Part shown: piece after piece, positions 28,779 to 39,615 of the stretch
Layout of the letters: every line of letters starts with the position of its first letter
How positions within the stretch are numbered: the stretch's first letter is position 1
Assembly (NCBI GenBank): GCA_017463225.1
Contig: JAFTPO010000066.1
Location: forward strand, 1 to 64,000
DNA: 64,000 nucleotides
Origin: Lachnospiraceae bacterium
GTDB taxonomy: Bacteria > Bacillota > Clostridia > Lachnospirales > Lachnospiraceae
Direction: 5' to 3'
The notes under the pieces: generated by a model
Databases searched by the model: none
Seen by the model: only the letters and a program-made list of their open reading frames with translations
Told to the model about the DNA's origin: nothing
Program-made: the position numbers and the translations under genes

Positions 28779-30389
28779 ATGGCACTAAAGCACGTAATGA
28801 TTAATGACATAATTTCAGATCACAGCGCAAGAATGCAGAATCTTAAGAAATATTACCCATTCTTTGTGTTAAGTGAAACCACCTTTTCCCAGTACAAGGA
28901 GGGAAAATATGGTTTTCTTGATATGGGTTATATTACTATGGCATCCTTGCGTTTTTTGATTAATGAAAACAATTTCCACGAGAAGGATATTACCTACGAG
29001 GAGTACGAGAGCTTTATGTCAGAGCTGCTTAGACGAGACTTTGATTTAGATGAGCCTAAGGAAGAGGAAAAGCAGCTTATTCTACATATATTTGACAAGC
29101 TAAAAAATGACGGTAGAGCTTTTGAATTTAGATTTTATAATCCGGACACAAAGTCCAGTCAGATTGCCAGAGTTAAGCTTATAGATTCACGTATAGAGAA
29201 TGGTCAGGTGCTTTATACCATTACTCCGGAGGGAATCGAGTTTTACTTAGATACCAAGGAGGTTAAGGATGAGAGCAAGATTAATGTGTCCCAGCTCCTT
29301 CTTGAGAAGATGATAACCTCCAATAACTTCAAGGGTGGTATCGATGTTGTTAAGAGAATCAATGCTCAGGTGATTAAGCTTAAAGCTGAGAAGGAGAACG
29401 TGCTTAAGCTACTTGGCATGGATATATTTGAGGGAAACAAGGCATACACAGAGTATATGGATACTATCGCCAAATGGTTCTCCGAGGAGCAAAAGCTTTT
29501 TGCTAAGAATAAGGCCTTGGTGGACAAGGCTATTAAGAAGGCAGAGTTTGAGAACAACCAGACCAAGGAGCCGGATAAAACCGGGGAGGGTGGTGCTAAG
29601 CTTCTTCGTTCTAAGGCTTTAGAGGAGATCAGCAGCTTGGAAAATGAGCTTAAGAAGACTATATACAACCACAGTCAGCTTATTGCAGAGACTATGGAGC
29701 TTACACAGTTAGCAGATAAGATTATAGGTCAGGCAAAGCTTAGAAAGCTTAGACCTGTATTTGATTTTAGACAGAGTCTTACTAATATTATGAAGCAGGA
29801 TAATCCTGCACTTATGGCACATGTGGTTATGCCACTTTTTGCCCCACGTATAGACAAGACATTTTCCATAAAGTCCATTGACAATATGCTCACTCTAAAG
29901 TCTGAGGATAAGGCTAAGGGAGAAAAGGTGGAGAAGGCTGTTTTAGACTTAGACTTTATGTATGAGGATGAGCTTCTGGATAAGAAAATCGGTGAGAATT
30001 TCAGCAAGCTTTTTGTGCAGCTTCTTGATCAGATTAAGAAGTGGAATAAGCTTAGCTTAAAGGAGTATAACGGTATACTTGAGATAAAGTTTGGCAAGGA
30101 AATATATGAGAATAGAGACTATTATTCCTTCTTGGTTCACTTAGCAGGTAAGAGGGAGTATGATATGGCAGCTATACTAAAAAAGCAGGATACTCTTTTA
30201 GAGGAGATGGTAGTTGCCAATATGTCTAAGGATGAAAAGGAAAGCTATAAAGACATGGCATTTACCATAGAGTTTAACCACGTGGACGGAAGACCGGTGG
30301 AGATAGAGCTTGGTGCTTTAGGAGAGCATCCGGGAGAGCCGGATAGATTTGTGGTAACAGATATGAATTTTGAAAGGAGGCTGGGATAA
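28779..30389 (+). CDS. JetA-like (MukF-type) kleisin of an SMC complex
   Basis: The 536-residue protein is predicted to be the kleisin-type subunit of a Wadjet/MksBEF-like condensin. The N-terminal part (about 1-165) looks like a winged-helix region, with YPFFVLSETTFSQYKEG near 27-43 and YTITPEGIEFYLDTKEV near 147-163. A long charged helical middle (about 165-330) and a C-terminal domain follow. It would bridge the JetC heads and bind the KITE protein JetB. I assign it from its size, order and resemblance to DUF5716-type JetA proteins; no catalytic motif is expected. GAGGAT precedes the ATG, and jetB begins two bases after its stop. A JetA of another subtype, or MukF-like, is the alternative. 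Confidence 0.75.
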   Translation: MALKHVMINDIISDHSARMQNLKKYYPFFVLSETTFSQYKEGKYGFLDMGYITMASLRFLINENNFHEKDITYEEYESFMSELLRRDFDLDEPKEEEKQLILHIFDKLKNDGRAFEFRFYNPDTKSSQIARVKLIDSRIENGQVLYTITPEGIEFYLDTKEVKDESKINVSQLLLEKMITSNNFKGGIDVVKRINAQVIKLKAEKENVLKLLGMDIFEGNKAYTEYMDTIAKWFSEEQKLFAKNKALVDKAIKKAEFENNQTKEPDKTGEGGAKLLRSKALEEISSLENELKKTIYNHSQLIAETMELTQLADKIIGQAKLRKLRPVFDFRQSLTNIMKQDNPALMAHVVMPLFAPRIDKTFSIKSIDNMLTLKSEDKAKGEKVEKAVLDLDFMYEDELLDKKIGENFSKLFVQLLDQIKKWNKLSLKEYNGILEIKFGKEIYENRDYYSFLVHLAGKREYDMAAILKKQDTLLEEMVVANMSKDEKESYKDMAFTIEFNHVDGRPVEIELGALGEHPGEPDRFVVTDMNFERRLG

Positions 30390-30391
30390 CA

Positions 30392-31105
30392 ATGGAAGAG
30401 AGAAGTTTAGATAAAGCACTGGATATATATTCGGCACTTATAACCGGACAGGAAGTATCCCGCTCCAATCAGGACACCAGAGATATGTATGAGGAGTACT
30501 ACTCAAACTCTGCTGTTTACGATATTACCAATCGTTTGGTTAAGAAGCTTAACCTAAATATTTATGAATACAATGACTCTATCTATGTTACTGCCGGTGA
30601 GGGTAACAGAGTCTTTGGATATACCAACGAGGATATGAAGAGACAGCTGGGACTTAGGCTTAATAAAGAGCTTTATATGGTGTACTTCATCATGTATAAT
30701 GCCCTTCTTAGCTTTTATCAGGATTCAGCATCATATCAGGTTAAGGAGTATGTTAAGCTGGAGGAGATGATGGAGAGCGTAAGCTCCTATCTTATGGCTA
30801 TTACTAAGGATTTGTCTGTGTATTCTATGGATGACCTTGAGGCGGACAGCTTTAAGACCATAGCCCTTCTTTGGGATGAGCTTCCAGCAGTTACCTCAGA
30901 TGATAAGGATAAGAACAGAGCCTCACGAGCATCTCGTACAGGCTATGTTAAGCTTACCTTCAACTTCCTTATAGCTCAGAAGCTTTTTGTGGAGGTGGAG
31001 GATAGATATTATCCTACTGATAGATTTAAGGCTTTGGTGGAGAACTACTTTGAGGAGTACAAGGGTAGAATTTATAAGGCCTTAGGAGGTGAAGTGGATG
31101 CCTAG
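30392..31105 (+). CDS. JetB-like (MukE/KITE-type) subunit of an SMC complex
   Basis: The 237-residue protein resembles the DUF6063/JetB group: alpha-helical with winged-helix-like segments (about 40-70 with LNLNIYEYNDSIYVTAGEG, and about 195-222 with LFVEVEDRYYPTDRFK). KITE proteins dimerise and clamp the kleisin and DNA. AGGAGG lies 11 bases upstream, inside the end of the JetA-like gene. Its last eight bases overlap the SMC gene, so the three subunits are translationally linked. Assignment rests on size, fold-like pattern and operon order. Confidence 0.72.
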   Translation: MEERSLDKALDIYSALITGQEVSRSNQDTRDMYEEYYSNSAVYDITNRLVKKLNLNIYEYNDSIYVTAGEGNRVFGYTNEDMKRQLGLRLNKELYMVYFIMYNALLSFYQDSASYQVKEYVKLEEMMESVSSYLMAITKDLSVYSMDDLEADSFKTIALLWDELPAVTSDDKDKNRASRASRTGYVKLTFNFLIAQKLFVEVEDRYYPTDRFKALVENYFEEYKGRIYKALGGEVDA

Positions 31106-34100
31106 TATTAACAGAATCAGAGTTAACAATGTAAAGTATAATTTTGGCACCCAGTTCTATGATGATTTTACCATGAGACTTTATGGTAAGAACACCCTTT
31201 ATGACCTGGCAAATGGTGGTGGTAAGAGTGTGCTTATGCTGCTTTTGCTACAGAATATGATACCAAACTGTACCCTAGACGATAAGCAGCCTATAGAGAA
31301 GCTTTTTAGAACCGGAAATGGCAACACAACCATTCACTCCTTAGTTGAGTGGAAGTTAGATGATACAGATGATGGCTATAAGTATATGACTACCGGCTTC
31401 TGCGCCAGAAAGGCAAAGGAGAGCGAGAATGAAGCTGAGAACCGTTCTAACAAGGACGTGGCAGCTATAGAGTATTTTAATTATTGTATCTTCTACAAGG
31501 AGTACAATAAGCACGATATAGTTAATCTCCCATTGGTTAAGGATGGAGAGAGAACAACCTACAGTGGCTTAAAGAGCTTTCTTAAGGAGTTAGAGCACAG
31601 AGATATGAGCCTTAAGGTTCGTGTTTTTGAGAGAAAGGGTGAGTACCAAAGATTTATCAGTGACTACGGTATACACGAAAGTCAGTGGGAGATAATTCGA
31701 GGAATCAATAAAACTGAGGGACATGTTAGAACCTACTTTGAGAACAACTATAAGACCACCAGAAAGGTAGTTGAGGATCTTCTTATAGAGGAGATTATAG
31801 AGAAGGCATTTATGGTAAAAACCAGCTTAGATGAAGCTGGAGCTGAAACTGATTCTATGGCTAAGATGCTTATGGATATCAAGGAGCAGCTTACTGTTCT
31901 TGCCAAGAAAAAGAAGGATATTAAGGTATATGACAGACAGGCAGAACTTATCGGTGTTTTGGCTGATAAGGTGGAGTCCTTCATCGGACTTTATAAGGAG
32001 CAGCACCAGCTTAAGAATCTGCTTGCAAATATATATGTTACCGGTGAGGAATTTGCCCGTAATGACGAGAAGCATCTAAAGGAGTTAGAGACTAAGCGCG
32101 ATGAGGCCAGAGAGCTTAAGAATAAGCAGAGAGAGCGTATAGAGTGCCTTAAGGTTTCTAAGGATAAGAAACAGCTAGAGGAGCTTAAGCAGGAGGAGCA
32201 GATTCTCCTATCTCAGGTGGAGGATTTGACAGAGAGAGAAAAATCACTCCAGAAAGAGCTATCCTTTATGGAAAGTACAAATGAATATTTAGAGTATCTT
32301 GAGGATAGAAAGAAATACTATCAGCATGATGCAGTAATTAAGAATATGATGACAGAGTCTTCATTTGATGAGGAAAAGCTTTATACCTATGCCTACAATA
32401 TCAAGATGCGCACTGACAAGATTATTATGGAGCTAAAAAGCAATATAGAAGAGCTTGAAGCTACCTATAGTGAGCTTTTAGAACAGGATGCTATGAATAA
32501 AAAGCTTCTGTCAGAGGCAAAGGTTAATCTGGCAGTGGCAAAGAACACTAAGCAGTCTGCAGACCAGGAGATAGTAAGCTTAAGTGAGGAGCTTTCGGTC
32601 ATAAGAATGTCTATGAACAGTATTCGTTTCACAGATATAAGCCAGCAGCTTCAGGAGAGTCAGTCCATTATAGATGGATATGAGAAGGAAATAGCTGAGG
32701 CTAAGAATGTAGTTGAGGAGAATAATGCTAATATACAGCAGGTGAATCTGGAGCTTTCACAGCTTGAGGATAGATTGCATGAGAATGATGTTTTAATGTC
32801 AGAGCTTAGCTCTCACCAGAGAGAGTATGATGAAGCCAGTGCCAAATTAGATAACATTAAGACTGTATATGGCGCAACTAAGGAAGCAGAGCTTCTTAAG
32901 GTGATAGCTGACAGAATAACACAGGCAGTTTTAGACATAGCATCAGTTAAGAAAAACATAGATAAATCTATGAAGAGAATTGGTCGTCTCAAGGAGGGCC
33001 GTATAATCAACATTTCCAAGGCAGCAGCTAAGGTTATTGATTACATCGAGACCAGACATGGTATAACTGCAATGTTTGGTATGGATTACTTATCAGCGTT
33101 AAGCTATGAGGATCAAAAGAATTTACTTGAAGCTAATCCGGAGCTTGCCTATGGAGTGCTGGTTAAGGATTACGAGACTATAGCATCAGATCCAAATATT
33201 TACAATATAGATACAGATGATGAGATAGTTGATGTATATGATATGGAGATGCTTGAATCAAAGGCGGTTCATTTTGGCGATAATGCATTTTCGATTCATG
33301 CATCATCAGGTTTCCTCACCGACGAGGGAACCAAGGATAAGCTTATAGAGGCGGAGAGAAATCTGTGCAGAGAATATGAGCTACAGCTTGATATTAAGGA
33401 TGAGATGCTTGCTGCATACAGACAGGATCAGGAATTTGTGCTTAGAATGTCTGAGAGTGATTTGCTGAAGGTGAAGGAAAGACTAAAGGAGTCTATTGAC
33501 CTTAATACCAGCTTAAGAGAGAGAAGAGCTGAGCTTACAGAGGATTTAAAGGGCTATAAGCTGGCTATAGACAGAGCCATAGAGAAGCGTAAAGAGGCTG
33601 AGAAGGCACTTCAAAGCTGCAGTCAGGATATGAGTAAGCTATATGCTGTAGAGAAGCTTACAGATATAATAAACGGTAAGGAAAAGATAACTGACCAGGC
33701 AAAGGAAGATGTGGAAAGACTGGAGCAGACCGTAAATAGTCTTACCAATAGTGCTGATGATGAGAATATACTCTTAGCAGCATCCCAAGCAAAACTTGAA
33801 ACACTTAGAGCTAAGTATGACCAGGTTAAGAGAGAGTGGGATGATAACTATAAAGCCTACTACAATGTAGATAAGGAATATAAGATTTTAACCATAAGCG
33901 ATGATGAGCTTAAGGCAAAGTTTACAGCTATGGTAACTATGGCCAGCCATGATACCAAGGCTATAGAGGACAAGAGACTTCTTATGGACACTATTCAGGT
34001 GTCTATGGACAGAGCCTTAAAGAACATTGAAAAGCGTGGCGTGGATGTTAAGGAGTTGCAGGCGAAAGAGAAAAGTAATCAGCTATATTTCTCTGATGAG

Positions 34101-35507
34101 GCAGTGCTTGATAACTTCAAGAAGGTTATGTCAGATACTGCAATTCAGCTTTCTGAGGCAAAAGCAAAGCATGCCAGAAAGCTGTCGGATATTAACAGAT
34201 TAGAGGGTAGTATAGAGTATGCTATCAAGAATATAGAGGATGCCTTCGGGGCTTATGTTGAGGAGGAAGCAAGCCTTTCTGAGATAGTATCAACTCTTGA
34301 GAATGGTGAAGAGCTTCTTAAGCGTCTTGCCAAAGAGGCTAAGGACTATGAGGAGGAGTATAGAAATTACCTCAAGACTCAGGGCTATATGGTAGACCTC
34401 TACAAGGATGTAAAGAGAATTGTCACAACCAATGATATCGACCTAGAGGGTGCTAACGTAATCAATGAGGAGAAGGACAAGCTGAGAGAAATCTTCGAGG
34501 ATACACTTCTTAAGTTCGACAGAAGCAACAAGAGCTTAGAGAAAGCGAAAAATGAGTTGGTACGCTTCAAGGGTAATACATCTGCTTCCTTGGAGCAGAT
34601 GAGCGCCTTCGAGCTGGCAAATACAATTAGGGAGGATGTAGTAATTCCTTCTAATTACGATGGTGCCACAGTGCTTATGGAGAACCTTAAGTCTATTACC
34701 GATTATATTCTATTAGAGAGAGACAGGGTGGAAAAGAGCCTTGTTGATATGGAAACCATAAAGGCAAACTTCGAGGAGCAGTGCCTCCAGAGATGCTTAG
34801 ATGTTAAGACAGAGTTAGATAAGCTGCCTAAGCTGTCGCGTATAGTGGCTGATGGGGAAGCTATACAGATGGTGGGACTTAATATTCCGTATTTTAAAGA
34901 AGAGTTCTTAAAGCAGAGAATGTCTCAGTACATCGACAACATAGTAGCTCAGGCAGATGATTACTCCTCAGAGAAGGAGCAGGTGAAGTTTATTAGAAAC
35001 AGCCTGGCATTAAAGAAACTTTTCGGAGTAATAGTAACAGATATGAACGGTATCAAACTCAGCCTATATAAGCGTGAGCGAATTAAGGAGCAGAGCAGAT
35101 ACTTAAAATACGAGGAGGCTGTAGGTTCAACAGGACAGTCTCAGGGTATTTATATCCAGTTCTTAGTAAGTATAATCAATTATATTTCCGGTATGTATCA
35201 CACTGGAAATGAGGACACCAGAACTAAGACAATATTTATAGATAACCCATTTGGAGCAGCTAAGGACGTGTATATTTGGGAGCCAATATTTGCTCTTCTT
35301 AAGGCAAATAATGTTCAGCTTATAGTACCGGCCAGAGGTGCAACACCTGCCATAACAGGTAGATTCGATGTGAATTATATCCTAGGACAGCAGATGTCTA
35401 AGGGTAAGCAGTTAACCGTAGTAACAGATTACACCAGCAAGGTTGACCAGGATGAGCTTGAATATCAGGATTTGGAATTCGAGCAGGTTAGCTTTGATTT
35501 TATCTAG
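31098..35507 (+). CDS. JetC-like (MukB-type) SMC ATPase
   Basis: The 1469-residue protein is a head-coil-hinge-coil-head ATPase. The N-terminal head contains the P-loop ANGGGKS (about 38-44). Long coiled coils (about 270-630 and 745-1230) flank a hinge-like globular segment (about 640-740). The C-terminal head has the signature GSTGQSQG (about 1343-1350) and Walker B TIFIDNPFG with Asp1382. The residue after that Asp is Asn1383, where ABC ATPases usually have the catalytic Glu. It should load on DNA and extrude loops with the two preceding proteins. The start at 31098 has AGGAGGT seven bases upstream. No JetD gene follows; a radical SAM gene starts 15 bp later. Confidence 0.85.
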   Translation: MPSINRIRVNNVKYNFGTQFYDDFTMRLYGKNTLYDLANGGGKSVLMLLLLQNMIPNCTLDDKQPIEKLFRTGNGNTTIHSLVEWKLDDTDDGYKYMTTGFCARKAKESENEAENRSNKDVAAIEYFNYCIFYKEYNKHDIVNLPLVKDGERTTYSGLKSFLKELEHRDMSLKVRVFERKGEYQRFISDYGIHESQWEIIRGINKTEGHVRTYFENNYKTTRKVVEDLLIEEIIEKAFMVKTSLDEAGAETDSMAKMLMDIKEQLTVLAKKKKDIKVYDRQAELIGVLADKVESFIGLYKEQHQLKNLLANIYVTGEEFARNDEKHLKELETKRDEARELKNKQRERIECLKVSKDKKQLEELKQEEQILLSQVEDLTEREKSLQKELSFMESTNEYLEYLEDRKKYYQHDAVIKNMMTESSFDEEKLYTYAYNIKMRTDKIIMELKSNIEELEATYSELLEQDAMNKKLLSEAKVNLAVAKNTKQSADQEIVSLSEELSVIRMSMNSIRFTDISQQLQESQSIIDGYEKEIAEAKNVVEENNANIQQVNLELSQLEDRLHENDVLMSELSSHQREYDEASAKLDNIKTVYGATKEAELLKVIADRITQAVLDIASVKKNIDKSMKRIGRLKEGRIINISKAAAKVIDYIETRHGITAMFGMDYLSALSYEDQKNLLEANPELAYGVLVKDYETIASDPNIYNIDTDDEIVDVYDMEMLESKAVHFGDNAFSIHASSGFLTDEGTKDKLIEAERNLCREYELQLDIKDEMLAAYRQDQEFVLRMSESDLLKVKERLKESIDLNTSLRERRAELTEDLKGYKLAIDRAIEKRKEAEKALQSCSQDMSKLYAVEKLTDIINGKEKITDQAKEDVERLEQTVNSLTNSADDENILLAASQAKLETLRAKYDQVKREWDDNYKAYYNVDKEYKILTISDDELKAKFTAMVTMASHDTKAIEDKRLLMDTIQVSMDRALKNIEKRGVDVKELQAKEKSNQLYFSDEAVLDNFKKVMSDTAIQLSEAKAKHARKLSDINRLEGSIEYAIKNIEDAFGAYVEEEASLSEIVSTLENGEELLKRLAKEAKDYEEEYRNYLKTQGYMVDLYKDVKRIVTTNDIDLEGANVINEEKDKLREIFEDTLLKFDRSNKSLEKAKNELVRFKGNTSASLEQMSAFELANTIREDVVIPSNYDGATVLMENLKSITDYILLERDRVEKSLVDMETIKANFEEQCLQRCLDVKTELDKLPKLSRIVADGEAIQMVGLNIPYFKEEFLKQRMSQYIDNIVAQADDYSSEKEQVKFIRNSLALKKLFGVIVTDMNGIKLSLYKRERIKEQSRYLKYEEAVGSTGQSQGIYIQFLVSIINYISGMYHTGNEDTRTKTIFIDNPFGAAKDVYIWEPIFALLKANNVQLIVPARGATPAITGRFDVNYILGQQMSKGKQLTVVTDYTSKVDQDELEYQDLEFEQVSFDFI

Positions 35508-35522
35508 GAAGAGGAGGAAGCT

Positions 35523-36398
35523 ATGCATTATAAAGAAGTGAAAGCAATACTTACCCCTCAGAATGGTATGAATCTGTACAGGGGATGTACCCACGGTTGT
35601 ATATACTGTGATTCTCGTAGTAAATGCTACCGTATGGACCATGACTTTGAAGATATAGAGGTTAAGGCGAAGGCCGCTGATTTGCTGGAGCATGCTCTAA
35701 AGCGCAAGAGAAATAAAAGTATGATAGCAACAGGCTCTATGTCAGACCCGTATGTGCCTATAGAGGCGGAGCTTAAGCTTACCAGAAGGTGTCTCAATAT
35801 TATAGACAGATTTGACTTTGGCCTTGTAATACAGACCAAGTCCAATCTGATTCTCAGAGACATAGATATACTGGAAAGTATACACAAGAAGACCAAGTGT
35901 GTGGTGGCAGTGACACTGACAACCTTTGATGATGAGCTTTGTAGGAAGCTTGAACCTAATGTGTGTACCACTAAGGAGAGAGTTCAAATTCTTATGGAGA
36001 TGAAGAAGAGGGGCATACCCACTATAGTTTGGCTGACTCCGTTTCTGCCATTCATCAATGATACCGAGGAAAACCTTAGAGGCTTAATGAACTACTGCAT
36101 AGAGGCAGGAGTTTATGGTATTATGAATTTTGGAATAGGTCTTACTCTTCGTGATGGAAACAGAGAGTATTTTTACGAGCAACTGGATAAGCTGTTCCCG
36201 GGACTAAAGGAGAAGTACATAGAAATCTATGGAAATGCCTATGAGGTAACCAGTCCTGACAGCGACAGGCTTATGAAAATATTCTATGAGCTCTGTGAGG
36301 AAAATAACATAGTTTATGATGAGCAGGAATTGCAGAGATATATGCGAGAGTATAAGAATAAGCAGATTGGAACACAGCTAAGCTTATTTGATATGTAA
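35523..36398 (+). CDS. SPL-family-like radical SAM protein with C-terminal sliding-clamp motif
   Basis: The 291-residue protein has the radical SAM cluster motif CTHGCIYC (Cys22, Cys26, Cys29; CX3CX2C) near the N-terminus, then ATGSMSDPY (about 69-77) and TLTTFDDEL (about 131-139), landmarks of the Rv2578c/spore-photoproduct-lyase-like group. It should bind a 4Fe-4S cluster and cleave S-adenosylmethionine; the substrate is unknown, and DNA is suspected. The last seven residues are QLSLFDM, whose first five match the bacterial beta-clamp binding pentapeptide. GAGGAGGAAG precedes the ATG, 15 bp after the SMC gene. It may be a replication-coupled repair enzyme; that is inference. Confidence 0.85.
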   Translation: MHYKEVKAILTPQNGMNLYRGCTHGCIYCDSRSKCYRMDHDFEDIEVKAKAADLLEHALKRKRNKSMIATGSMSDPYVPIEAELKLTRRCLNIIDRFDFGLVIQTKSNLILRDIDILESIHKKTKCVVAVTLTTFDDELCRKLEPNVCTTKERVQILMEMKKRGIPTIVWLTPFLPFINDTEENLRGLMNYCIEAGVYGIMNFGIGLTLRDGNREYFYEQLDKLFPGLKEKYIEIYGNAYEVTSPDSDRLMKIFYELCEENNIVYDEQELQRYMREYKNKQIGTQLSLFDM

Positions 36399-36413
36399 AA
36401 AGGAGGAATGAAT

Positions 36414-37406
36414 ATGAATTGTTCAGTATGTGGAGCAAATATACCGGAAGGTAGTACATTTTGTTCTGTATGTGGAGCAGATATGGCGGCTTTTGCAGGG
36501 GTGCCACAGGATAAGATAATAGTTAATCAAACCGAAGCACAGCATATGGCAGCAGGAGATGATACAGTAACTCAGCTTATACCTGAGAATTATATGCAGT
36601 CAGCAGGGGACGACACAGTAACTCAGCTAATACCTGAGAATTATATGCAGGCTCAGGGGGATGATACAGCAACAGTTATGCTGGACCCAAATCTTACCCC
36701 GCAGTATACTTCAAATCAGCAGCCGGCATTTTCGCAAGGACCGGGAGTTGGTTACCAGCAGACATATGCTCAGCCGCAGATGGGGTATCAGCAGTCTGTG
36801 GTACAGCCAATGTACCAGCCAAATTATCAGCAAAACTTTAATCCTTCAGCATCCTATGATGGAAAGAAGCAGTCACCTTTGTTTAAGGGTATTTCCCTTG
36901 GAACACTTGTGCTTATTTTGGCCACTGTAATCAGCTGTCTGGTATTTATGATAAAGCCTGTATATTACACCATAGAAAGCTTTATAGGTGGTGCTGCAGA
37001 TGAGGAGCTTATTGAAGAGGCTATGGAGATGCAGGGTGATGAGGATGAGGTTAATGAGGTAAACAATGCCTATAGGATATTTATAGTTATAGCAGTAGTA
37101 TTTCTTGTGATAGCTACTATTAATGCATTGGTGTGCTTCCTGAAGGTTAATGCGGGTTGCATAAAAAGTCCAACACTGCAGGCGGTGGGAGCATTTATAC
37201 TAACCCTTATAGGTGCTGCTGTGATTATAGCACTTCATGTGATGTTTAAGGACGCTATTGGAGATGGTCTGGACTATGGTAATTTCTCACCGGAGGAGGT
37301 TAAGAAATTTAATGTTTATGACCTTATGTATGTTTTAGGAATAGTGTCAATAGTAGTGTCATTTGTTAATATAATTACATCAGCTATGGCAAGAAAGAGA
37401 GCGTAA
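36414..37406 (+). CDS. Zinc-ribbon membrane protein with 17-residue tandem repeats
   Basis: The 330-residue product begins with a zinc ribbon (CSVCG at 3-7 and again near 21-25). It continues with two copies and a partial third of a 17-residue unit starting GDDTVTQLIPENYMQ (residues 48, 65 and 82), then a Gln/Tyr/Pro-rich stretch (about 100-150). Three to four membrane spans occupy the C-terminal half (about 165-185, 222-245, 262-282, 302-322). The family is not named. The ATG at 36414 has AGGAGG seven bases upstream; the ATG six bases earlier is too close. The Thr-rich repeats resemble phospho-acceptor tails read by FHA domains, but no FHA or kinase gene is visible here. Confidence 0.72.
   Translation: MNCSVCGANIPEGSTFCSVCGADMAAFAGVPQDKIIVNQTEAQHMAAGDDTVTQLIPENYMQSAGDDTVTQLIPENYMQAQGDDTATVMLDPNLTPQYTSNQQPAFSQGPGVGYQQTYAQPQMGYQQSVVQPMYQPNYQQNFNPSASYDGKKQSPLFKGISLGTLVLILATVISCLVFMIKPVYYTIESFIGGAADEELIEEAMEMQGDEDEVNEVNNAYRIFIVIAVVFLVIATINALVCFLKVNAGCIKSPTLQAVGAFILTLIGAAVIIALHVMFKDAIGDGLDYGNFSPEEVKKFNVYDLMYVLGIVSIVVSFVNIITSAMARKRA
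36555..36680 (+). repeat. 51-bp in-frame tandem repeat
   Basis: Copies start at 36555, 36606 and 36657 (the last partial). Each full copy encodes 17 residues beginning GDDTVTQL. Several third-codon positions differ between copies, so the peptide is conserved more than the DNA. Confidence 0.85.
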
Positions 37407-37424: not shown

Positions 37425-38123
37425 ATGGCAAAGTCAAAGGAACAAAGAAAACAGGAAAAGAAGGCTGCTATGCAGGAAGCCAAGAAGGAGCAGGCTAGGG
37501 TAGATGCTACACCTAAGCAGGAAACTGAGGATAAAGCAAAGGAGCCGGAAACTAAGACAGAGGTTAAACCAAAGGTGCAGACAGAGCAAATTTCTCTAAC
37601 TATGTACACAGCAATGTATATGATAGTAACCTTTTTGTCTGCAGCACTTACAGCTTTTTGCTTGGTTATATATGGAAATCCAGGTAAGTATGTTATATCA
37701 TCATATGTAGGCGAAGGCTTAAATGAGATGTCTAGAGAGATGCTTAGACTGTATATGTTAGATGAGTTGGGAGAGGGAAGAATTAATGGCTTTTATCTTG
37801 CAATAGGAATTGCCATAGCAGTGGAAGCAGTTGTGATGCTTATCGGTATGGTGAAGGCAGTTGATAACAGAAATAAGCCTGTGCCGGTTCTTAATATAAT
37901 CGGTATAGTAATGTCTATAGCTGCTCTTGGATTGTTTATATATGCGGATCATTTTATGAAAGCTGACATTCGCAGATATGATATAGACAGACAGCCGGAG
38001 CTTCAGTTATATACCTTATATCTGCCACTTTTGATTACTAATATAGTGGCTATGATAGTGGGATTAATAACAACCATTGGCGGCTTGCGCAGATGGAAAA
38101 AAACAGGAAAGACAAGTAAGTAA
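37425..38123 (+). CDS. Four-span membrane protein with charged N-terminal region
   Basis: The 232-residue protein begins with a highly charged, Lys/Glu/Gln-rich cytoplasmic segment (about 1-62) and then has four hydrophobic spans (about 66-86, 122-142, 155-172, 198-218). No family is recognised. It starts 18 bp after the zinc-ribbon membrane protein gene with a purine-rich RBS. Its size and topology mirror the C-terminal half of that protein, suggesting a related envelope function. Confidence 0.65.
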   Translation: MAKSKEQRKQEKKAAMQEAKKEQARVDATPKQETEDKAKEPETKTEVKPKVQTEQISLTMYTAMYMIVTFLSAALTAFCLVIYGNPGKYVISSYVGEGLNEMSREMLRLYMLDELGEGRINGFYLAIGIAIAVEAVVMLIGMVKAVDNRNKPVPVLNIIGIVMSIAALGLFIYADHFMKADIRRYDIDRQPELQLYTLYLPLLITNIVAMIVGLITTIGGLRRWKKTGKTSK

Positions 38124-38445: not shown

Positions 38446-39615
38446 ATGGACTACAATGAGCTTAGCTTGAAGCTGCATCAGGAACATGGAGGGAAACTCC
38501 AGGTTACCTCAAAGGTGCAGATTAAAAATAGAGACGATCTTAGTACTGCTTACACCCCTGGTGTTGCAGAGCCATGCAGAAGGATTAGAGACAACAGACA
38601 GGACGTTTATAAGTATACCTGTAAGGCGAATACTGTAGCTGTTGTGTCAGATGGAACAGCGGTGCTTGGATTAGGAGATATAGGTCCTGAGGCGGCTATT
38701 CCTGTTATGGAAGGTAAGGCAATATTATTTAAGGAATTTGCGGATGTGGATGCATTTCCAATATGCCTTGATACTAAGGATGTGGATGAGATAGTTGAGA
38801 CTGTTAAAAGGATAGCGCCGGTGTTTGGCGGTATTAACCTTGAGGATATTTCAGCTCCAAGATGCTTTGAGATAGAGGCACGCCTTAAGGAGGAGCTTGA
38901 TATACCTGTGTTTCATGATGACCAGCACGGTACAGCTATAGTTGTTTCAGCAGGGCTTATTAATGCTGTAAAGCTGGTGGGGAAGAGGCTTGAAGAGGTT
39001 AATGTGGTAATTAACGGTGCAGGCTCAGCCGGAATATCTATTTGTAAGCTTCTTATGCAAATCGGTGTGGGCAATGTGGTTTTGGTTGATAAGCAGGGAG
39101 CTCTCTGCCCTGGTGAGGAATGGATGAATCCTGCCCAAAAGCAGATGGCTGAAATTACAAATATCCACAGAGAAAAGGGTGCGTTGGTTGATATTATAAA
39201 GGGTAAGGATATATTTGTTGGAGTATCTGCCCCTGGTGTTGTAACTGCAGAGATGGTAGCATCTATGGCTAAGGATTCCATCGTATTTGCTATGGCGAAT
39301 CCTACTCCGGAGATTATGCCGGAGGAGGCAAAGAAGGGCAATGTAAGAGTTATGGCTACAGGACGTTCAGATTACCCTAACCAGATTAATAACGTGCTGG
39401 TATTCCCGGGAATATTCAGAGGTGCATTGGATGCTAAGGCTACAGCAATTACTGAGGAGATGAAGATTGCGGCAGCGAAGGCAATTGCGGCTATAGTTTC
39501 AGATGAGGAGTTAAACGAGGAGTATATTATACCGGGAGCCTTCGATGAGAGAGTTGCCAAGGCGGTTGCCAAGGCAGTGTCTGACGAGGCTAAAAAGCTG
39601 GGGATAACAAAATAG
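38446..39615 (+). CDS. NAD(P)-dependent malic enzyme
   Basis: The 389-residue oxidative decarboxylase converts malate to pyruvate, CO2 and NAD(P)H. TPGVAEPC (about 37-44), the catalytic tyrosine/lysine region, VFHDDQHGTAIV (about 155-166) with metal-binding aspartates, and the nucleotide-binding NGAGSAGI (about 189-196) are visible. The length is that of the short bacterial form without a phosphotransacetylase domain. The RBS is weak. It is the last gene before a terminator, 31 bp after the helical protein. Confidence 0.93.
   Translation: MDYNELSLKLHQEHGGKLQVTSKVQIKNRDDLSTAYTPGVAEPCRRIRDNRQDVYKYTCKANTVAVVSDGTAVLGLGDIGPEAAIPVMEGKAILFKEFADVDAFPICLDTKDVDEIVETVKRIAPVFGGINLEDISAPRCFEIEARLKEELDIPVFHDDQHGTAIVVSAGLINAVKLVGKRLEEVNVVINGAGSAGISICKLLMQIGVGNVVLVDKQGALCPGEEWMNPAQKQMAEITNIHREKGALVDIIKGKDIFVGVSAPGVVTAEMVASMAKDSIVFAMANPTPEIMPEEAKKGNVRVMATGRSDYPNQINNVLVFPGIFRGALDAKATAITEEMKIAAAKAIAAIVSDEELNEEYIIPGAFDERVAKAVAKAVSDEAKKLGITK

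Follow-up and report, generated by a model that had tools for sequence, protein, structure and literature searches.

A Wadjet type III JetABC operon without JetD in Lachnospiraceae as a putative resident chromosomal SMC complex

What becomes of a Wadjet complex that has no nuclease? The question is raised by a jetA-jetB-jetC operon of a Lachnospiraceae bacterium (GenBank assembly GCA_017463225.1), located on the stretch of 64,000 nucleotides (contig JAFTPO010000066.1, positions 1 to 64,000) that was analysed here and is referred to as the window. In Wadjet systems the shape of DNA is sensed by JetABC and the cutting is done by JetD, with loop extrusion implied by the total-extrusion model (PMC10586767). 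If JetD is missing, JetABC should accordingly translocate on DNA and hold it uncut. From sequence comparisons we consider it probable that the operon encodes a structural maintenance of chromosomes (SMC) complex derived from a type III Wadjet system, which has lost JetD and, through vertical inheritance, is now a resident complex of the chromosome alongside SMC-ScpAB. This suggests a defence system turned to housekeeping.

The operon consists of three genes in the same direction on the forward strand. JetA (28779..30389, 536 aa) matched the PADLOC model JetA3 (PDLC00560) at 703 bits, JetB (30392..31105, 237 aa) matched JetB3 (PDLC00571) at 347 bits and Pfam DUF6063 at 160 bits, and JetC (31089..35507, 1472 aa from a GTG; alignment A4) matched JetC3 (PDLC00581) at 1773 bits. 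These type III scores are far above chance level and account for all of the Wadjet subunits JetA, JetB and JetC, in agreement with the Wadjet-like assignment made in a first-pass annotation of this DNA. The products form a set of SMC-type ATPase (JetC), kleisin-type subunit (JetA) and KITE-type subunit (JetB) with no nuclease subunit, kleisin and KITE being assigned by profile name. A gap of 2 nt separates jetA and jetB, and jetB and jetC overlap by 17 nt; the ATG at 31098 is a likelier start for jetC than the GTG because homologues begin MPxINR. A genome-wide search found a single JetC in the assembly (2.77 Mb in 95 contigs, 97% complete). Across the same genome, neither JetD_C (PF09983) nor a profile of 32 type III JetD sequences gave any match; the absence of JetD that the first-pass annotation had reported for the operon extends to the genome, with no homologue found elsewhere in it. 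Comparison genomes had an operon of the JetD type but none of the JetD-less type, and in the same run the profile detected JetD in all 17 of them, in G136 as two pieces on two contigs. Fifteen of these 17 had given sequences to the profile, and the independent positives are therefore only G176 and G136.

JetC matches were found in 53 of 250 genomes of the family; in 33 of them the score was at least 511 bits, and in the remaining 20 it stayed below 100 bits (of these 20, 17 were read and G218 was taken as a relic, leaving out G233 and G089). In a tree of 85 JetC sequences with a midpoint root, the high-scoring kind without JetD formed one clade with a support of 0.998, the sister of which (L211-L213) carries JetD. 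A class-wide sample gave JetC matches in 23 of 341 genomes, and the high-scoring kind (at least 852 bits, the next score being 343) was seen only in genomes of that family (G000, G180 and G384), the last of these lacking JetD as well. Loci were read in 15 of the 20 genomes of other families with a match, leaving out G290, G297, G499, G456 and G565. Judged from the tree and these samples, the JetD-less clade is confined to one family, Lachnospiraceae, and is nested among JetD-bearing type III systems. The distribution would be explained most simply by one loss of JetD in an ancestor within Lachnospiraceae; a root inside the clade would alter this reading, yet lineages with JetD are found to either side of the midpoint.

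The 34 genomes with the JetD-less complex include only two with a full type III JetD (G151 and G174), in both cases on a contig with a second, distant jetABC, as a separate JetD-ABC operon; six others gave partial matches to the JetD profile at 19-27 bits. We note that G151 and G174, each holding a JetD-less and a JetD-bearing type III complex, form a natural test pair. In the distant type III loci of the family (L111-L129), JetD (328-385 aa) lies directly upstream of jetA in 17 of 19; the two exceptions are L123, where the contig ends with a piece of JetD, and L122, where JetD lies about 10 kb upstream. In other families a JetD match precedes the operon in 15 of 17 loci (15 genomes). Two type III-like JetC loci without an upstream JetD match, L218 and L227, both belong to G573 of another family, and are possibly separate losses of JetD or cases of a diverged JetD.

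JetC was compared with RpoB taken from the same genomes, 31 in the JetD-less set and 19 in the JetD-type set (G040 with a partial RpoB, G129 in which no RpoB was found and G115 with a truncated JetC were left out). In the JetD-less set 19 of 28 JetC splits matched RpoB, as against 1 of 16 in the JetD-type set (random mean 0.3 and maximum 2 in each case). Where support was at least 0.95 in both trees, 13 splits were shared and none of 19 JetC splits conflicted in the JetD-less set, whereas no split was shared and six of six conflicted in the JetD-type set. The sets are unequal in size and depth, and the contrast is still large. Mantel comparison of JetC with RpoB gave r 0.74 (p 0.0005) for the JetD-less set and r 0.75 (p 0.0005) for the 22 genomes within it that belong to the TPR/AAA branches. 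By its agreement with RpoB, the inheritance of the JetD-less complex is vertical and core-like, though the complex is found in only 33 of the 250 genomes. The ratio of nonsynonymous to synonymous divergence (dN/dS) was determined for seven pairs and, where finite, was 0.04-0.10 for JetA, 0-0.03 for JetB and 0.03-0.11 for JetC; these values are rough because many dS values exceeded 1. All three genes are under purifying selection. A resident condensin, offered as an alternative in the first-pass annotation, is thus supported by the single JetD-less clade, its congruence with RpoB and purifying selection. JetC had no match in a phage collection and no relative among viral contigs, in a scan that reaches close relatives only, and plasmid records gave one distant partial match only.

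The motifs of JetC can be read in the window and in alignment A4, in which the Walker A motif NGGGKS (31212..31229, forward strand, as are the following two) is invariant across 17 rows. The ABC signature STGQSQG lies at 35127..35147, by motif reading and the alignment, and the Walker B motif FIDNPF at 35235..35252, with Asn at the usual catalytic Glu. This Asn was considered as a sign of a dead ATPase and rejected as such, since JetC of JetD-bearing type III systems carries it too; Walker A (GGGK[S/T]) and a DNPF Walker B, with Asn in place of the Glu, occur in JetD-less and JetD-type JetC alike. The signature was STGQSQG in 46 of 46 readable JetD-less sequences and SGGE in 15 of 16 readable JetD-type sequences of the family (L091, L109 and L013 of the former and L111, L116 and L120 of the latter were unreadable). 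As a mark of JetD loss STGQSQG is weakened by the nearest JetD-bearing relatives, L211 and L212, which have SEGQSNA and SKGETNG. With a lost contact face for JetD in mind, columns conserved solely in the JetD-bearing set were counted, 13 in JetA and 5 in JetB, with no structure on which to place them. The conservation of JetB, at first a candidate for something unusual, is shared by the JetD-bearing set and is not special.

We infer a resident role on the chromosome: the complex is inherited vertically, its genes are under purifying selection, and part of the clade has it at a site of replication and repair genes. JetABC lies downstream of dnaX-ybaB-recR and upstream of a TPR/AAA-like gene in 12 loci (L089, L090, L096-L098, L102-L104, L106-L108 and L210; ybaB was uncalled in L106, and the gene families were checked in L107). 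The gap between recR and jetA was 6-349 nt in 9 of 11 measured loci, and 597 nt in L102 and 1088 nt in L097, with another frame in between. In G218 a 3' remnant of jetC (L208, 8262-8608) remains between recR and a TPR/AAA-like gene, and JetABC has therefore been lost from that site; in G224 recR adjoins the TPR/AAA gene with no JetABC. We propose, by homology, that the JetA kleisin, the JetB KITE subunit and the JetC ATPase would form an ATP-driven DNA loop extruder which, when stalled without JetD, could not cut; in the manner of MukBEF and MksBEF, it would hold DNA or fold it. Its role would probably be in replication-linked chromosome organisation or repair, and this is proposed because of the 12 loci in which JetABC is just downstream of dnaX-(ybaB)-recR. 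In these loci the Toprim protein RecR sits upstream of jetA, the position of JetD in the ancestral systems. Perhaps, following loss of its own Toprim nuclease, JetABC was wired into the dnaX-ybaB-recR operon as a further chromosome-acting SMC complex of Firmicutes that gives extruded or stalled DNA to RecFOR-type recombination; this is the boldest reading, drawn from gene position, and we put it forward tentatively, as a possibility on the doubtful side. Loop extrusion, action on the chromosome and any link to recombination are what we infer from homology and context.

Several observations weigh against a resident chromosomal role. The complex is present in just 33 of 250 genomes of the family and is therefore dispensable. 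The window's own lineage is not at the dnaX-recR site and adjoins a malic enzyme gene instead. With no support limit, 9 of 28 JetC splits in the JetD-less set conflicted with RpoB (15 of 16 in the JetD-type set); the JetD-type set was also correlated with RpoB in the Mantel comparison (r 0.49, p 0.011), and the eight genomes of the window's own branch gave only r 0.48 (p 0.011). Searches of PDB sequences with JetA, JetB and JetC returned coiled-coil or unrelated matches only; for JetC, neither MukB nor JetC was among the best 60 of 104 matches, which were coiled-coil matches. We know of no test of the activity of the JetD-bearing type III relatives, and a vertically inherited immune complex is possible. 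In Corynebacterium glutamicum, MksB with a nuclease partner had no effect on chromosome organisation, as reported (PMC10123090). JetD_C proteins (PF09983) are encoded in 10 of the 33 genomes that have the complex, always on a contig other than that of jetC, and two of these are the second operons of G151 and G174.

These JetD_C proteins on other contigs, with the homology to Wadjet and the retained ATPase motifs, would fit a complex that is still anti-plasmid, in which JetABC extrudes and holds small circles and a nuclease cuts in trans, or plasmids are silenced without cutting. We think this rather unlikely, as a JetD_C match is absent from the window genome and from 22 others of the 33, and the inheritance of the complex differs from that of the JetD-bearing type III systems of the family. 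The loss of JetD and the real jetC remnant in G218 could instead be signs of a defence system in decay, of which the operon is a remnant, but intact frames, kept ATPase motifs and dN/dS of at most 0.11 in all three subunits make this scarcely credible. A different effector in place of JetD was the proposal of the first-pass annotation, which took the gene after jetC, encoding a radical SAM protein, to fill the JetD slot. Its 15-nt spacing in the window, the gaps of 10-60 nt in 20 loci and its place beside jetC in 20 of the 21 loci that make up the window's subclade (support 1.0) favour such a link, and the adjacency is not peculiar to this one strain, although 16 of the 20 loci (the window and 15 others) are close relatives. 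However, type III operons are ordered D-A-B-C, and the JetD slot is therefore not the one that follows jetC. The JetD-less clade also extends beyond the subclade in which the radical SAM gene adjoins jetC; JetD would therefore have been lost before that gene came to lie there.

The radical SAM gene is, moreover, mostly found away from JetABC. A match was present in 123 of the 250 family genomes and reached at least 280 bits in 70, of which only G000, G180, G129 and G040 have it beside jetC and 66 elsewhere; a fifth linked copy, in G160, scored 192 bits. Seven genomes with the JetD-less complex (G127, G197, G166, G182, G014, G115 and G092) have their match on another contig, and G070 (L081), a member of the subclade, has kept JetABC and the flanking block with no radical SAM match anywhere in its genome. 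Conservation in the subclade is about the same for the whole block as far as the transglutaminase gene, with malic enzyme found in 21 loci and each of MoxR, DUF58 and transglutaminase in 20. The replacement of JetD by this protein is accordingly very unlikely, and the gene is, on these distributions, most readily understood as a neighbour that became fixed in a single lineage and no general partner of JetABC. A true partner of a resident SMC complex might rather be the TPR/AAA-like protein, lost or diverged in the window's lineage. Counted in called genes, its gene comes first or second after jetC in 22 loci (L013, in which the contig ends in jetC, was omitted from counts of genes after jetC), and in L086 and L087 an N-terminal match is found 7.7 and 2.4 kb downstream, respectively. 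Some match is present in 241 of 250 genomes, mostly without JetABC, and the window's lineage retains JetABC with weak TPR/AAA matches only, which makes such a partnership unlikely. We note that none of the ten genomes of the window's JetC branch (G000, G180, G040, G070, G129, G160, G106, G188, G131 and G151) has a TPR/AAA match better than E 7e-15, G151 having none at all, and that among the remaining 240 genomes of the family a match at 1e-15 or better is present in 226, three candidates being scored per genome. The TPR/AAA gene seems to have been lost or to have diverged in this branch.

As a JetD-less resident complex, the window operon can be set beside known SMC systems. MukBEF of enterobacteria is alike in working, with an SMC motor, a kleisin and a KITE subunit and no nuclease, and the signature of MukB is of the STG type. 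MukBEF apparently took the place of SMC-ScpAB. Such a replacement also seems to be stated in the review (PMC10586767). In contrast, ScpA is present in the window genome, split between contigs C56 and C81 with one of the two pieces at a contig start, and in 240 of the 250 family genomes, and replacement of SMC-ScpAB by JetABC was rejected. No MukB or MksB model was among the Pfam or NCBIfam matches at E 1. With type III JetABCD the complex shares JetA3, JetB3 and JetC3 by PADLOC, the order A-B-C, the GGGK[S/T] Walker A and the DNPF Walker B; it differs in that the clade has no JetD, has STGQSQG and not SGGE, and has a JetC tree congruent with RpoB. MksBEF of Pseudomonas is likewise a three-subunit SMC-kleisin-KITE complex without a nuclease, for which the same origin has been proposed: in the review, MksBEF and perhaps MukBEF are put forward as former defence systems minus the nuclease, in the words "tempting to speculate" (PMC10586767). 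The window complex, known here from its sequence, is unlike MksBEF in belonging to the type III lineage and to another phylum, and the nuclease losses of the JetD-less clade and of MksBEF are presumably independent events, the JetC tree having been built without MksB. In the absence of MksE and MksF, MksB of Borrelia reportedly promotes long-range contacts (PMC10406323), and a Hi-C study of gut bacteria states that other condensin-like proteins have yet to be identified (PMC10197239). We found no account of a JetD-less JetC clade in the open-licence literature, which is weak evidence of absence, and no mention of DUF6063 there.

One family therefore holds both states, a JetD-bearing set that conflicts with RpoB and a JetD-less clade that agrees with it, two genomes holding both, and this makes a step from defence to housekeeping testable. 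The PADLOC JetC3 model PDLC00581 scores two nuclease-free members of the clade at 1773 and 1941 bits; such matches thus need a check for JetD before they are counted as anti-plasmid systems. Defence islands around JetD-type loci were considered and rejected: of nine large neighbours picked there, PADLOC matched only a sugar ABC transporter ATPase, and the nine also include a transposase and a relative of serine recombinases.

An AlphaFold2 model of JetA had a predicted local distance difference test score (pLDDT) of 74.4 and a predicted template modelling score (pTM) of 0.35. The radical SAM gene (35523..36398, forward strand, as are those that follow) encodes 291 aa matching Pfam Radical_SAM at 50.6 bits. 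In a scan for promoters and terminators sites were fewer than in shuffles, and the interval between jetC and this gene had no terminator on the forward strand; the gene is probably cotranscribed with jetABC. The idea of a repair function had come from a photoproduct lyase-like label for its product. The CX3CX2C motif is there (C22, C26 and C29) and is shared with the PA0069 and Rv2578c radical SAM proteins, the nearest NCBIfam families at 156 and 144 bits, both below their cut-offs of 360 and 430; no photoproduct lyase family model was among the NCBIfam matches at E 1, and a PDB sequence search gave no clear solved relative. Nine nucleotides further on lies a gene for a zinc-ribbon protein (36408..37406, 332 aa, Pfam Zn_Ribbon_1), found in 6 of the 21 subclade loci, followed by a gene for a 232-aa protein with no family assigned, membrane-like by reading (37425..38123), found in 10 of the 21. 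Malic enzyme (38446..39615, by Pfam) is the first gene of the housekeeping block of malic enzyme, MoxR, DUF58 and transglutaminase. PADLOC gave one match among eight neighbours in the window, an ABC ATPase. Between the window and L001, L006 and L011, synonymous divergence of jetA and jetB is below that of the radical SAM and malic enzyme genes, which codon bias or recombination could explain.

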